A stretch of DNA of 33,580 nucleotides from Lachnospiraceae bacterium (GTDB taxonomy: Bacteria; Bacillota; Clostridia; Lachnospirales; Lachnospiraceae), in NCBI GenBank assembly GCA_029098105.1, contig JAQXNR010000165.1, forward strand, positions 1 through 33,580, written 5' to 3'. Below, one piece after another: positions 3,354 to 30,518 of this stretch. The position numbers and the translations under genes were made by a program. Numbering within the stretch: position 1 is the stretch's first letter; the number at the start of each line of letters is the position of its first letter. Under the pieces are notes generated by a model that was not told the origin of the DNA, did no database searches, and saw only the letters and a list, made by a program, of their open reading frames with translations.

Positions 3354-4109
3354 ATGCTGGCAATCAGTGAGATAAAAAAACAATTTCAGGTAGAGGAAGA
3401 AGCGGACATCTGCCGTTTGATTGAGGAATACCAGACAGATGAACGTGCGGGAGTACAAAAACTGGTAGATTCTGCCAGAAAAAAACTGGAACGCCGAAAT
3501 CAGGAACGACAGCGGATGGAGCAGATGAAACGCTATGAGAGAGAATATGAGGAATATACTTACATAGCCGGTATGGATGAAGTGGGACGGGGACCTTTGG
3601 CAGGACCCGTGGTGACTTGTGCGGTAATTTTGCCAAAAGATTGTGACCTGCTTTATATTAATGACTCCAAAAAGGTTTCCGCTAAACTGCGGGAGAAATT
3701 ATGTGGAGAGATTAAAGAGGTGGCACTGGATTACCAGATTGGTATGGCGGACCATACTGTGATTGATGAAATCAATATTTTGCAGGCGACGTATAAAGCC
3801 ATGCGGGATTGCGTGTCGGGTATGCAGGTGCAGCCGGATTTGCTGTTAAATGATGCGGTTACGGTTCCAGGGATTTCCATTCCTCAAGTGCCGATTGTGA
3901 AGGGGGATGCCAAATCCATTTCCATTGCGGCGGCGAGTATTGTGGCAAAGGTGACAAGAGATGCTATGATGGAGCAGTATGACAAGTTATACCCGGAATA
4001 CGATTTTGCTTCCAATAAGGGGTACGGTTCTGCAAAACATATAGAGGCAATCAAAAAGTATGGTCCTTGTCCGATTCATCGCAGAACGTTTATTCAGAAT
4101 TTTCTTTAA
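3354..4109 (+). CDS. rnhB: Ribonuclease HII
   Basis: GMDEVGRGPLAGPVVTCAVIL, INDSKKVS and AAASIVAKVTRD motifs. ATG at 3354 is preceded by agaaggag, favoured over the ORF-track start at 3285. Confidence 0.95.
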   Translation: MLAISEIKKQFQVEEEADICRLIEEYQTDERAGVQKLVDSARKKLERRNQERQRMEQMKRYEREYEEYTYIAGMDEVGRGPLAGPVVTCAVILPKDCDLLYINDSKKVSAKLREKLCGEIKEVALDYQIGMADHTVIDEINILQATYKAMRDCVSGMQVQPDLLLNDAVTVPGISIPQVPIVKGDAKSISIAAASIVAKVTRDAMMEQYDKLYPEYDFASNKGYGSAKHIEAIKKYGPCPIHRRTFIQNFL

Positions 4110-4143
4110 CCGGTTGGAAAAAGGATGACAAGGAGGCGGTAAG

Positions 4144-5916
4144 ATGGAAATTATTACAACTGCGGCTGCGGCGACATCGACAAAAAGTAATCTGAATGCC
4201 AGCCAGAACATGGCGAATGCCAGTTATTCCAAAAGTCTTATGGCATCCAGAGCCCTTAAGAGCAGCGGAATGTACAACGAGGTAAACATTAGCCAGTTGG
4301 AGCCGGGAGATGTATTTAAAGGGGAAATTACCAATATGACTGGGCGTTCTGTTACAGTTTCGCTGGGCAACGGACAGGTGCTCAGTGCTACGCTGATGGA
4401 GCATGTTCCCATAAACATCGGAAATAATCTCTATTTCGAAGTAAAGGAAAACGACGGGGAGCGGATTACCATCCGGCCTTTATTGGAGGAGAAGTTCAGT
4501 CCCCAGAATCAGACGATTGAGAAATCCCTGCAATCAGCAGGGCTGCAGATTAATGAGAAAAATATGGCAGTAGTAAAAGGGTTGATGGATGCAGGAATGC
4601 CCATTGACCGCAATTCTATTATGAAAATTTTACAGCAGTTGGTGAATTTTCCTAAGGCGGGAATTTCCACTGTGATCGATATGGTGCGATGTGAGATTCC
4701 CATCACACAGGAAAGTCTGAACCAGTTTGAACAGTACCAGCAGCATACGCATCAGTTGAATACCCAGATGGATTCCGTGTTGACCCAGATGACGGCAGCC
4801 TTTGAATCCATGGGAGCAGAGGAGGCTTTTTCCGGCGATATTCTTCGGTTTAACCAGCTGGTAGTGGATACTTTTACCACTACCCGGCTGGAGCAGCCTC
4901 TTCCCCAGTTGACGCTTTTGGATGCCTTTGTGATGGAGCCTGGGGAAGTGGAGAGTTTTTATGCCCGAATGGAAGGGATGCAGAGCGATGGAACAGGACA
5001 AGTTGTGACAGACGAGAATGGAAACGCCTTCCTCAAGGAAAGTCTTTTGCTGGATGAAGCGGGAATGCCGGTTCAGGGTAAAAATGGAGAGTATGTTTTT
5101 ACCAATGAGATTCAATCTGCCTTTGCCAATCAGTTGAAGACTCTGGGAATCAGTGAGGATGCAGTGCGGGTTATGCTGGATCCCAATAATACGGCAGAAG
5201 ATTTGTTAAAGGCAATTCAGGATTATGTAAAAAATGACAACAGTTTAAGTGACACTGCGATAAAGCATTTTTTCTCTTCCAGAGAGTATACGGTTCTTTT
5301 GGAGAGTGTGGCGCAGCAGCACTGGAAACTGACACCGGAACAGGTGAAATCTCCAGAAAAGGTGGAGCAACTCTTTTCCCGTCTCGCAGAACAGACGGCA
5401 AAACTGGCAACTGCTGCAGAACAGAATTTTCCCTCCGGAGGAGATCAGATGGGGCGTCAGGCGCAGAATATGAATGAGAATCTGCAGTTCATACAAATGC
5501 TGAATGAGAAATATACCTATGCTCAGATTCCATTGCAGTTGAGCAATCAGGATGCCAACAGTGAACTGTATGTTTATACAAATAAAAAAGCCTTGTCAAA
5601 GGACAAGAAGGATATTCAGGTGTTACTTCATCTGGACATGGATCATCTGGGTTCCACCGATGTGCACGTCCAGCTCAATGGCAGCAGGGTAACAGCACGG
5701 TTTTATTTGGAGGACAATCGTTCCATGAATACGGTGAAATCCCATATTGACCAGTTGGAACAGCAGATTGCAGGACTGGGGCTGACGTTGTCTACGGAAG
5801 TGGTAAAACGGATGGAAAAGAAAGAAGAAGTTGAGAATATTGTGGAGGATTTCCTGGCGAAGGATATTCCCGGCAACCAGCAGATTAAACGATATACATT
5901 CGATATGCGGGCGTAA
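4144..5916 (+). CDS. FliK/YlqG-like flagellar hook-length control family protein
   Basis: 590 aa, Gln/Asn-rich, with a C-terminal FliK-like domain (LHLDMDHLGSTDVHVQLNGSRVTARFYLEDNRS). Position between rnhB and an FlhB-like gene matches B. subtilis ylqG. Confidence 0.7.
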   Translation: MEIITTAAAATSTKSNLNASQNMANASYSKSLMASRALKSSGMYNEVNISQLEPGDVFKGEITNMTGRSVTVSLGNGQVLSATLMEHVPINIGNNLYFEVKENDGERITIRPLLEEKFSPQNQTIEKSLQSAGLQINEKNMAVVKGLMDAGMPIDRNSIMKILQQLVNFPKAGISTVIDMVRCEIPITQESLNQFEQYQQHTHQLNTQMDSVLTQMTAAFESMGAEEAFSGDILRFNQLVVDTFTTTRLEQPLPQLTLLDAFVMEPGEVESFYARMEGMQSDGTGQVVTDENGNAFLKESLLLDEAGMPVQGKNGEYVFTNEIQSAFANQLKTLGISEDAVRVMLDPNNTAEDLLKAIQDYVKNDNSLSDTAIKHFFSSREYTVLLESVAQQHWKLTPEQVKSPEKVEQLFSRLAEQTAKLATAAEQNFPSGGDQMGRQAQNMNENLQFIQMLNEKYTYAQIPLQLSNQDANSELYVYTNKKALSKDKKDIQVLLHLDMDHLGSTDVHVQLNGSRVTARFYLEDNRSMNTVKSHIDQLEQQIAGLGLTLSTEVVKRMEKKEEVENIVEDFLAKDIPGNQQIKRYTFDMRA

Positions 5917-24246: not shown

Positions 24247-25944
24247 ATGAATTTTAAGACATTCTATATCATTTTATTATTTTTCTGCGCCGCGTTTGTC
24301 GGCGCAGGTTTCGGTTTTGCCAAAGTTTACCAGCAGCGTCAAGAGGGAAGGTCCATCACTCTCCCGGAGGCGACTGCCTTTCCCCAGGTCAGTGAACAGA
24401 TTTACCAGTACCTGAAAAACGATAACAATGGGTCGCTGGCGTTGGTGGGAAACATTTCCTTTGATGACAGTATTCTTTTGAATAGTTATGATGCTACATG
24501 GAAATCGTTCTCCTGCGATGATATGCTGAATCCGGTATCTTCCTACCTTTCCCATCAAGGGTGCCTTGTAGGCAGTATGAACGGTACTTTTGCCGGAGAG
24601 GGGAAAGGAAGACAGAACCGGAGTGAATTTGGATATGGTGGAAGCAAATACTACAATGCCCCGGATGACTTTGCAAATATGCTGGGGGATTACGGCTTTG
24701 ATATGCTTGCTATGGCAAATTACCATACCTATGATTCCAATTATTCTGGACTCTGTCAGACAAAAAAGACCGTTATTCAAAATGGTATGGTTCCGGTGGG
24801 AATATTTGAGGAAGAGGAGGATGTCTGCGAATATGAAACGAAAGATTTTGGTGGAATTTCAGCGGCGGTTTTTTCCTATACGGAAGCGTTAAAGTTTAAA
24901 CCGGGAGAATAAAACGATTTTTCTGTGAATAAGTTATTTCGGTCCCAGGAGGAATATTTGAAAAAACTCTGTAAAGCAGTAAAACAGAGTAAAAAACTGG
25001 ATGCAGATGTGGCTGTGGTTTATATTTATTTTAGCAATACCCGTACCGGTACGGTATCTTCCCGTCAAAAAGAGATGGCTCACAAGTTGCTGGATGCGGG
25101 AGCAGATATTGTGGTAGGAACCAATCCGGACATTATTGAACCGATGGAAATCCGTAAGAGCAAAACAAAAGAGGGACATGAAAAATACCAGATTGCCTTA
25201 TATTCCCTTGGGAATTTTATTACCGGACAGACGGGGCGGGTGGGAACGTTGACCCGGAATACGGGGATGCTTGCCCGTTTTCAATACGATCAGGACAGTA
25301 CAGGAACATACCTTACAAGTCTTTCTTTTTCCCCTACTTACTGTGTTTCATACCCCACGGTGGAGGAGCAGGAAGATGCGGGAGCACATGTCCGGGTATT
25401 TTCCATTCCCGAAGTGGCAGATTATATAGAGCAGGGGGGCAGTACCCGGTCCACTGTAAAGTCTACCAAACCAGCAGTGAAACGGGATCAGAATGGTGCC
25501 AGCCAGCGAACGACTGCGGATGAACCAGAGATGGAGGAAACGACAGAACAGATACAGGAAACTACGGTTACAACTGAGATTTCAGAAGCGACCACACAGG
25601 CAAGTCAGGAAACACAGAGTACGCCATCGACTGAGACGCAGTCCATGCCGGAACAGGACAATCCCGAAGCGACAGGGATTTCCCGGTCCGGAAAGAACCG
25701 ATTGCTGTCCTTGCTGGGAATCCAGCAGGTTTCTGCCTTGCAGAATACCCCTTCTAAAACGTTCTTTGCAGCAAAAGAGGAGGAAATGCTAGTAAATGAG
25801 GAATATACTGGTAGTTTGACACGAAGCGATTTCTCCTATCTTACTACAGCCACAAAAAAAGCGATTGATAGACTGTTTAGTGAGACTGGATATGAATATA
25901 GTTATAAAGACGGGTGGTTTTATTTGAAAAATTTAAAGAAATAG
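24247..25944 (+). pseudogene. CapA-like (poly-gamma-glutamate synthesis family) gene interrupted by an in-frame TAA at 24910-24912
   Basis: ORFs 24247-24912 and 24925-25944 share a frame and are separated by one TAA; together they cover the N- and C-terminal parts of a CapA-like fold (FDMLAMANYHTYD, then ADIVVGTNPDIIEPMEI and LYSLGNFI). Confidence 0.75.
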
Positions 25945-26638: not shown

Positions 26639-27877
26639 ATGATTTCTTTTTTAAAGTGGCTTAGGGGATATTTGCTGATTTCCTGTTCGGGACCGATGGT
26701 GGAGCGCTTTTTAAACCAGTGTGTTCATCAGAATATTCTATTGTGGAATCTTAGGCGGGAGGGAGAGGAGTTATATTGTAATGTGGGCAGGACTGCTTTT
26801 TCCCAGTTAAAGGACATTAGCAAAAAAACCGGGACCCGGCTTACGATTCAGAAAAAATGTGGATTTCCCTATTTGCTATACCGGCACCGTAAACGCCGGA
26901 TTTTTGCATTGGCGGCATTGCTGTCTATGGTGCTGCTTTATGTGATGTCTCTTTTTATATGGGATATTCATATTGAGGGAAATGAAAGTTATAAAACAGA
27001 TGAAATTCTTGCCTATGTCACAAAAAACTATGTTCACGGTGGACAACTGATTAGCACCGTAGATACGATTGCTTTGGAGGAAGAACTGAGAACCCACTAC
27101 GACAAGTTTGCCTGGGTGAGTTGTGAAATTCAGGGAACCCAGTTAATCATTCATATTAAAGAAACCATTAATCTGAATGTGAAAAATAAGGCAGAAAAAC
27201 CAGCGGATTTAATTGCCAGTAAGTCCGGACAGATTTCTTCCATTATTACCCGGGCTGGCACTCCCATGGTTGAGGTTGGACAGAAGGTAAAAAAGGGGGA
27301 TGTTCTCATATCGGGAACCATTTCCTATGTGAATGATTCCCAGGAAGTATATGAGGAAGCCTATGTTCCGGCGGATGGGGATATCGTTGCCAAAACACAA
27401 TATTCTTATAAGGATACTTTTTCCTTGTCCTATTATGAAAAAGAATATTTAGATGAATATAGGCGGGGATATGAACTGCAGTTTTTTGGAAACCAATGGA
27501 AGATATATGAGCCGAAAAATCTAAAAAAAGAGTATGACCGAACGGAAAAAATAGTCCATGTAAAATTGGGGAAAACCTTTTACTTTCCTGTGGCACTCAA
27601 AATAAACCAATATCAGGCATACCAGTTAAAACGGGTGACCTATGACAAGGAACAGGCAAAAAAGGAAGCAGAGCGGCATTTACAAAAGTTTTGCGATAAT
27701 TTATGTAAAAAAGGGGTAGAAATAGTTGAAAATAATGTTACAATAAGTATATCTGGTGAAAATCTGACTGCCAGCGGCACGGTTACTGTTCTGGAGCCGA
27801 TTGGTAAGATTTCACTGATTGATACGAAACAGCGGCAGAAGGAGAAAACGAATGAGCACAGTGGAGAGACTGATTAA
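26639..27877 (+). CDS. yqfD: Sporulation protein YqfD
   Basis: WLRGYLLISCSGPMVERFLNQCVHQNILLWNL; single TM; synteny yqfC-yqfD-phoH. Confidence 0.9.
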   Translation: MISFLKWLRGYLLISCSGPMVERFLNQCVHQNILLWNLRREGEELYCNVGRTAFSQLKDISKKTGTRLTIQKKCGFPYLLYRHRKRRIFALAALLSMVLLYVMSLFIWDIHIEGNESYKTDEILAYVTKNYVHGGQLISTVDTIALEEELRTHYDKFAWVSCEIQGTQLIIHIKETINLNVKNKAEKPADLIASKSGQISSIITRAGTPMVEVGQKVKKGDVLISGTISYVNDSQEVYEEAYVPADGDIVAKTQYSYKDTFSLSYYEKEYLDEYRRGYELQFFGNQWKIYEPKNLKKEYDRTEKIVHVKLGKTFYFPVALKINQYQAYQLKRVTYDKEQAKKEAERHLQKFCDNLCKKGVEIVENNVTISISGENLTASGTVTVLEPIGKISLIDTKQRQKEKTNEHSGETD

Positions 27878-28865
27878 GATTCCCAATGCACATATTCAGA
27901 ATGTATGCGGACAGTATGATGTGTTTTTGAAGAAAATAGAACGCACATTGAAAGTGTCTACGGTTTTCCGGGAAGACCAACTGAAGGTAATTGGTGAGGA
28001 GAGGGAAGTGGCTAAGGCGGTTCAGGTAATTACCCAGTTGCTGGTGCTTTCAGAGCGGGGAAACGATATTACGGAGCAGAACGTGGATTATGCCTTGTCT
28101 CTTAGTATGACAGAACAGACACAAGAGATTTTGGAACTGGACCGGGAGGTCATCTGTCATACGATTCAGGGAAAAGCGGTGAAACCCAAGACATTAGGAC
28201 AACAGCGGTATGTACAGCAGATGCGGGACAATATGATTGTTTTTGGTGTGGGACCCGCCGGTACTGGAAAAACCTATTTAGCCATGGCAATGGCGATTAC
28301 GGCATTTAAAAATAATGAGGTCAACCGGATTATTCTCACCCGTCCGGCGATTGAGGCAGGGGAGAAATTGGGATTTTTACCGGGAGATTTGCAGAGTAAG
28401 GTAGACCCTTATTTGCGTCCACTGTATGATGCTCTGTACCAGATTATGGGAGCAGAAACATTCCAGAAAAATATGGAGAAAGGGTTGATTGAGGTGGCTC
28501 CTCTGGCTTACATGAGAGGAAGAACTCTGGACAATGCCTTTGTTGTATTGGATGAAGCCCAGAATACCACGCCTGCCCAGATGAAAATGTTTCTGACCCG
28601 TATTGGGTTTGGCTCCAAAGCGGTGATTACAGGAGATTTGACACAGAAAGATTTAGCACCGGATGCGAAATCCGGTCTGGAAGTTGCCTTGAAGGTGTTG
28701 GGCAGGATGGATGACGAGATTGGAATCAGTTATTTAAGCAGTACCGATGTGGTTCGTCATCCACTTGTTCAGCGCATTGTAAAAGCCTATGAGGATTACG
28801 AGAACCGGCAGGCGAACCGTAGCCGTAGCAAGTCCCATTCCGGTTCCAAAGGAAAAAAACAATAA
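27852..28865 (+). CDS. phoH: PhoH family ATPase
   Basis: FGVGPAGTGKTYLAMAMAI, ILTRPAIEAGEKLGFLPGDL, FVVLDEAQNTTPAQMKMFLTRIGFGSKAVITGDLTQKDL; ATG 27852 overlaps the end of yqfD. Confidence 0.95.
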   Translation: MSTVERLIKIPNAHIQNVCGQYDVFLKKIERTLKVSTVFREDQLKVIGEEREVAKAVQVITQLLVLSERGNDITEQNVDYALSLSMTEQTQEILELDREVICHTIQGKAVKPKTLGQQRYVQQMRDNMIVFGVGPAGTGKTYLAMAMAITAFKNNEVNRIILTRPAIEAGEKLGFLPGDLQSKVDPYLRPLYDALYQIMGAETFQKNMEKGLIEVAPLAYMRGRTLDNAFVVLDEAQNTTPAQMKMFLTRIGFGSKAVITGDLTQKDLAPDAKSGLEVALKVLGRMDDEIGISYLSSTDVVRHPLVQRIVKAYEDYENRQANRSRSKSHSGSKGKKQ

Positions 28866-28878
28866 GCGGGTGCAAAGT

Positions 28879-29976
28879 ATGGAACAAAGAATCGTTGGTA
28901 TTATATGCAATGTATTTGCATTCCTGCTATTTGAATATTACATGGAATATGCAAATGACAAATACCAGTTCAGTATTCGGTATGAAATTTACGGAATCTA
29001 TGTAGTACAGTTTCTGTTGTGCTACTTTTTTGTGATGGAAAATTATTTGATATCCCCTCTGTTTTTTGGCATTCTTCTTTTGCGAAGGTATTCCGGGGAT
29101 GTTCCGCTTTGTCTGGCTTTTCTTCTTTCGGAGGCGGTACAGATTTGGATTTTTTCCGGTTTTGCCCCAGAGGTATTGTTATACAACCTGTTTGTGGGAG
29201 GTGCCTTGTGTCTCATGCCGGTTACTTCGAGCGGGGAGGGAAAAAGAAGCCTGCTCTGGCATGGGTTTAGCTTGTTGTACAGCATGTTGGTGGTTGTTGT
29301 CTGTGACTTTGGATTCTGGGGGGCAACAACCTTTTCCCGATTATTGACGGTAGTACTGGTGTATTTCGTTTCTCTGTTGCTTTCTCTGGTGGGAGATTTT
29401 TTGTTAGAACAGGGATTGAATTTCTTTTTCGAGAAAATAATCTGGCGCTATGTAAAAGAAGATACGCCACTAATGAAGCGGTGGCGGGAGCAGGAGCCGA
29501 ACAGTTATGCCCAGTCCCAGCAGATTTCTGCTCTGGCCCAGGTGGTGGCGGGACAACTTAGGGCAGATATCATGGTAGCAGCGGTGGCAGGCAGGTATTA
29601 CAATGTGGGAATTCTAAATGGAAAGGCGGATTATGAGAACTGCTGCCAGATTCGCAGAGAATACCATCTGCCCAAATACCTTGAAGGAATCTGGAAAGAC
29701 CAGTATTTTAAACAGCGGATTCCTGCTACAAAAGAATCGGCGGTGGTAGCGTTTTGTGCTATGGCAGTGGCAATGCTGGAATATGCCAGACGCACCGGAA
29801 AGACTGGTATGGGAATTCCCGAGATGGTGGCAAAACTGATGCAGAACCAGTTCCAGAAAGGGAAATGGAACCGGTGTGGATTTACGGTAGAGGAATTGCT
29901 GGTGCTGGAGCAAGGTGTTGCCCAATGGCTGTGGGAGCAGTCGGAAACCAGAAAAGAACAGAATTTGGATGGTTAA
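28879..29976 (+). CDS. Truncated PgpH-like membrane protein with a degenerate HD domain
   Basis: 366 aa, several TM helices, then PLMKRWREQEPNSYAQS..LPKYLEGIWKDQYF..ATKESAVVAFCAMAVAMLEYA..FTVEELLVLEQG, co-linear with the PgpH HD domain but without its His/Asp residues. Lies between phoH and ybeY. Confidence 0.7.
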   Translation: MEQRIVGIICNVFAFLLFEYYMEYANDKYQFSIRYEIYGIYVVQFLLCYFFVMENYLISPLFFGILLLRRYSGDVPLCLAFLLSEAVQIWIFSGFAPEVLLYNLFVGGALCLMPVTSSGEGKRSLLWHGFSLLYSMLVVVVCDFGFWGATTFSRLLTVVLVYFVSLLLSLVGDFLLEQGLNFFFEKIIWRYVKEDTPLMKRWREQEPNSYAQSQQISALAQVVAGQLRADIMVAAVAGRYYNVGILNGKADYENCCQIRREYHLPKYLEGIWKDQYFKQRIPATKESAVVAFCAMAVAMLEYARRTGKTGMGIPEMVAKLMQNQFQKGKWNRCGFTVEELLVLEQGVAQWLWEQSETRKEQNLDG

Positions 29977-30020: not shown

Positions 30021-30518
30021 ATGGATATTATGGTAGAATATGAAGCAGAGCGAAAATTGGACTTTGATTATGAAAGGGTCATCTGGGATATTGTAGAGGA
30101 GGCTCTTAGTCTTTACGAATGTCCCTATGATGCTGAGGTTTCGGTTACCCTGACAGGCAATGAGAGAATTCAGGAGGTTAACCGTCAGTATCGGAATCTG
30201 GATTGTCCTACAGATGTGCTTTCTTTTCCTATGGTAGAATATGAGACACCAGGGGTATTTAAAGAATTGGACACGAAGGAAGATATTTTTAATCCGGATA
30301 CCGGCAATTTGATGCTGGGGGATATTATGATTTCAGTAGATAAGGTGCTGGAACAGGCAGAATTATATAATCACAGTCCAATCCGGGAACTTGCCTTTCT
30401 GACTGCCCATTCGATGCTGCATTTGTTTGGCTATGACCACATGGAAGAGGAAGAACGGATGGATATGGAATCCCGTCAGGAGATTCTGCTGCAGAATAAA
30501 GGGTATACAAGAACGTAG
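30021..30518 (+). CDS. ybeY: Endoribonuclease YbeY (rRNA maturation)
   Basis: NRQYRNLDCPTDVLSFPM, LGDIMIS, HSMLHLFGYDHMEEEE. Confidence 0.95.
   Translation: MDIMVEYEAERKLDFDYERVIWDIVEEALSLYECPYDAEVSVTLTGNERIQEVNRQYRNLDCPTDVLSFPMVEYETPGVFKELDTKEDIFNPDTGNLMLGDIMISVDKVLEQAELYNHSPIRELAFLTAHSMLHLFGYDHMEEEERMDMESRQEILLQNKGYTRT

Follow-up and report, generated by a model that had tools for sequence, protein, structure and literature searches.

Degenerate PgpH homologues without an intact metal site in the phoH–ybeY slot of Lachnospiraceae

The closest described relative of the protein analyzed here is PgpH (YqfF), a 7TM-HD c-di-AMP phosphodiesterase for which Listeria Lmo1466 (PDB 4s1b/4s1c) served as the reference. 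In Listeria and Bacillus, c-di-AMP hydrolysis is shared by PgpH and GdpP (PMC5575661, PMC12072042). To place PgpH-like genes at this locus, we surveyed 60 loci surrounding ybeY in the family and the order, along with 80 phoH loci and their public titles. Outside Lachnospiraceae, the slot between phoH and ybeY holds either a full PgpH of 697–759 aa or a 458–463 aa form that lacks the extracellular domain, and both forms keep every HD ligand. The PgpH proteins of about 460 aa found in sister families (L081, L083, and L090) have no extracellular domain and retain all HD ligands and full-length HD segments; judged from these residues, they are presumably active and are a possible intermediate step. 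Within Lachnospiraceae, the slot is either occupied by a degenerate form of 315–486 aa or empty, with phoH running almost straight into ybeY.

The DNA analyzed here (the window) is a 33,580-nucleotide contig of a Lachnospiraceae bacterium (GCA_029098105.1, JAQXNR010000165.1). Its slot gene lies in the following gene run.
26639..27877, + strand: yqfD, 5′ of phoH in the same gene run (PF06898)
27852..28865, + strand: phoH, the upstream neighbour (PF02562)
28879..29976, + strand: degenerate short PgpH homologue of 365 aa (intact ORF, leave-one-out profile match)
30021..30518, + strand: ybeY, the downstream neighbour (PF02130)
The first-pass annotation had described an intact ORF here, and the frame is indeed open over 365 codons plus a stop; the protein is therefore 365 aa long rather than the 366 aa given before. 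The 'good start' that it had noted is doubtful, as no strong Shine-Dalgarno sequence precedes the ATG at 28879 (judged by eye, unscored). Elsewhere in the window, a CapA-like PGA_cap protein is encoded by two same-frame ORFs (24247–24912 and 24925–25944) with a TAA stop and a short gap between them, and the halves match PGA_cap profile positions 2–142 and 172–255, respectively; the split may mark a pseudogene or result from faulty assembly.

A phmmer search of the PDB with the window protein returned a single match, the PgpH HD structure 4s1b of Listeria (E = 0.0019). We then applied a profile of 43 same-slot proteins, with the window protein left out of its construction. Against this profile the window ORF scored 139.9 bits (E = 2e-41), with a single unbroken alignment along most of the protein; not one of the 410 other reading frames of the window or of 1000 shuffles scored. 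Searched against the PDB, the subfamily profile found a PgpH HD structure at 2.5e-22. An AlphaFold2 model of the window protein, built on an alignment of 28 subfamily members, had a mean pLDDT of 80.5, and a Foldseek search of the PDB returned only four matches at E < 0.001, all of them to PgpH HD (4s1c/4s1b, target TM 0.62–0.66). A PgpH-type HD fold is thus present by profile, AlphaFold2, and Foldseek, and the protein resembles PgpH in its phoH–ybeY position, its sequence and fold homology, and its architecture, in which a membrane part of several helices precedes a cytosolic HD fold.
28879..29454, + strand: membrane part, residues 1–192, about 6–7 helices, without 7TMR-HDED (hydropathy and AlphaFold2 helices)
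29461..29958, + strand: pseudo-HD domain, residues 195–360 (AlphaFold2 pLDDT mostly 84–97; top four Foldseek matches all PgpH HD)

Family models see less of this protein. PF07698 (7TM-7TMR_HD) and TIGR00277 (HDIG) leave it unmatched, and they match 13 and 23 of the 28 subfamily members, respectively, at E up to 0.1. Neither PF07698 nor PF07697 (7TMR-HDED) has a match anywhere in the window's genome, and the extracellular PF07697 domain was above the cut-off in none of 299 Lachnospiraceae genomes. A protein pattern scan of genome contigs in which the window protein was the query returned no relatives.

The catalytic site was read in Listeria numbering, obtained by adding 493 to the residue number of the 4s1b chain; the Lys547 and Asp648 named in a review of PgpH structure agree with this offset (PMC12072042). 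Six PgpH metal ligands were scored (H514, H543, D544, H580, H604, and D648), and the alignment to Listeria PgpH gives the following replacements.
29512..29514, + strand: Q212 in place of ligand H514
29599..29604, + strand: Y241-N242 in place of H543-D544
29629..29631, + strand: D251 in place of H580; the segment here has 25 residues versus 51
29701..29706, + strand: Q275-Y276 in place of H604-H605; the next segment has 13 residues versus 40
29758..29760, + strand: A294 in place of D648
None of the six ligands of the two-metal HD site is kept, whereas 20 of 30 non-ligand conserved positions are; K547 is replaced by I245, and the HD segment that bears the NPH motif is missing. Unlike PgpH, therefore, the window protein has no extracellular HDED domain, has two deleted HD segments, and has lost all six ligands and Lys547; unlike the short PgpH of the sister families, it lacks the ligands and the full-length HD segments, and it shares with them the slot, the membrane part with HD domain, and the missing extracellular domain. 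These results uphold the earlier proposals of PgpH descent with an HD fold (including the Foldseek match that the annotation had suggested seeking), absence of the large extracellular domain, replacement of every metal ligand, and deletion of the middle HD segment.

We collected 43 further same-slot proteins in Lachnospiraceae, which gives 44 members with the window copy. In the intact PgpH proteins compared, 51–52 residues separate YHDIGK from QHH and 40–41 separate QHH from MLAD; in the degenerate form both segments are cut short, in nearly all 44 members and to almost the same lengths, with 25 and 13 residues in most members and exactly 25 and 13 in the window copy. The window copy thus carries both traits that define the subfamily (its place between phoH and ybeY, and HD segments shortened to about 25 and 13 residues), and it shares only 14–20% identity with the other members. 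Such near-fixed segment lengths at this low identity argue for one ancestral event together with structural constraint. In the gene tree, the degenerate form is separate from the 460-aa form, and the window copy sits on a long branch (2.13) and ranks second from last among the 44 by profile score. By these comparisons, the window protein is a divergent member of a family-wide Lachnospiraceae subfamily. The first-pass reading therefore stands as to PgpH descent, HD fold, lost catalytic residues, and a selected frame, but not in treating the protein as peculiar to one genome; the roles that it proposed, as a c-di-AMP sensor or a PhoH/YbeY-linked scaffold, find no specific support.

The metal site is degenerate throughout the subfamily. 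Of the 43 relatives, 35 retain H514, 21 H543, 2 D544, 2 H580, 8 H604, and 36 D648, and none has an intact site; relatives with intact HD residues, which the annotation had named as evidence for a sequencing or assembly problem, were thus not found within Lachnospiraceae. At position 544, Arg (25) or Glu (8) usually replaces Asp, and position 604 is Tyr in most relatives. Because D544, H580, and H604 are so rarely kept, almost no member retains the second metal site. Three of the 44 members (the window copy, L085, and L163) have none of the six ligands. No description of this subfamily was found in the open-licence literature on PgpH, and within that literature it is apparently undescribed, a provisional claim of novelty. 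Many members are probably annotated as 'HDIG domain-containing' (TIGR00277) in public databases, a name that implies a metalloprotein, whereas their ligands are mostly lost.

The slot gene is patchily distributed. In a flank tree of 134 concatenated PhoH and YbeY sequences, it is present in 50, seven of which are intact forms, and its history takes 25 losses by Dollo parsimony or 14 changes by Fitch. About two thirds of the sampled Lachnospiraceae genomes are without it, which indicates that its function is non-essential. The four other sampled species of the window's genus all lack it, and in the flank tree so does the whole rest of the clade around the window copy, 15 members.

Selection on the gene was assessed in two ways. 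In related slot-gene pairs where it could be measured, dN/dS (NG86) was 0.10–0.20, a rough estimate with silent sites near saturation in most pairs; it was similar for ybeY (0.04–0.16) and lower for phoH (0.00–0.10). The purifying selection that the annotation had proposed looking for is thus seen among related copies; the window copy itself has no relative close enough for such an estimate (none above ~28% identity in 397 Lachnospiraceae genomes, with the best at ~25–28%). In simulations of neutral substitution, the frame survived only ~0.05–0.1 substitutions per site and was broken in 99.7% of trials by 0.1 (P(no stop) = 0.003), whereas the fourfold-site distance to the congeners L039, L040, and L070 is at least 1.2 where unsaturated. 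An intact frame at such a silent distance implies selection for most of the gene's separate history, in its own lineage or in that of a donor, in keeping with the earlier suggestion that the frame is maintained.

Taken together, we consider it probable that the window gene belongs to a PgpH-derived Lachnospiraceae subfamily and encodes a maintained, dispensable, non-hydrolytic membrane pseudo-enzyme. The comparison indicates that the extracellular domain was lost before or at the base of Lachnospiraceae, and that the HD domain then underwent two internal deletions and lost its two-metal site. An intact GdpP could take over c-di-AMP hydrolysis, as its presence suggests, and the remaining membrane-anchored HD fold would bind a protein partner or a nucleotide without hydrolyzing it. 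Selection, visible in the frame and in dN/dS, retains the gene in some lineages, presumably for such binding, and others lose it. By ancestry, c-di-AMP is a natural candidate ligand; we give it modest weight because the metals of a PgpH-type pocket cannot form in the window protein.

The main rival, which we regard as unlikely, is terminal decay: the window copy would be a vestige whose function ended recently and whose deletion is to follow, as in its congeners. The absence from all four congener species, the many losses on the flank tree, and the long branch and second-lowest profile score fit this account, as does a frameshift in a relative: the slot gene of L106 (uncultured Roseburia, 3996–5170) has a one-base deletion in an A run compared with the closely related L109, which we read as either recent disruption of the gene or an error in sequencing. 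However, the window frame is intact far beyond the distance over which a neutral frame lasts, its base composition by codon position resembles that of the neighbouring genes, and the non-ligand conserved positions are largely kept; neutral decay, the counter-reading raised in the annotation, does not fit the intact frame.

Slightly more doubtful still is reacquisition, in which the gene was not retained and a distant lineage later supplied it to this locus; this is a question of history only and is compatible with a maintained pseudo-enzyme. Its absence from the rest of its clade in the flank tree (15 members) means that vertical retention needs several separate losses; on the other side, no donor-like sequence exceeds ~28% identity in the 397 family genomes, the composition is native, and loss is common across Lachnospiraceae. 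Continued hydrolase activity of the window protein, with only one metal or on a different substrate, is very improbable: a set of residues that could hold one metal (H514, H543, H604, and D648, with an acidic residue at position 544) survives in several relatives, but the window copy has none of these residues and has lost Lys547 as well, and most relatives carry Arg at 544 and Tyr at 604. Chance resemblance or an assembly artefact can practically be dismissed, since the leave-one-out profile already refutes it and the slot, the two deletions, and the fold match all point to PgpH, even though the genome is a draft (84% complete, 213 contigs) and the protein alone has no meaningful match in Pfam or NCBIfam.

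A non-hydrolytic pseudo-enzyme has consequences for annotation, as a PgpH-like gene is easily taken for that of an active c-di-AMP phosphodiesterase and many relatives without a metal site still match the HDIG model. The subfamily shows selection on both sequence and length despite the lost site. It thus offers gut-bacterial pseudo-phosphodiesterases that arose in nature, beside presumably active 460-aa relatives and outright deletions, for testing what the membrane-HD scaffold does without catalysis. A broader and rather speculative view, to which we give little credence, is that the whole family turned PgpH into a non-catalytic membrane receptor or regulator of the c-di-AMP network and left GdpP as the sole active one of the two membrane-bound phosphodiesterases.

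The window's genome encodes CdaA (295 aa) and GdpP (697 aa, with the DHH motif), so that the intact gdpP for which the annotation had suggested a search is present; with GdpP remaining, loss of PgpH catalysis would be tolerable. No second pgpH was seen in this draft genome, at 84% completeness, or in close relatives. A link between the slot gene and the presence of CdaA or GdpP was considered and dropped, as nearly every family genome has both regardless. In another genome of the same order (G067:C27:9033–9401), we observed a match to a second diadenylate cyclase (DAC) domain within a 498-aa open frame.
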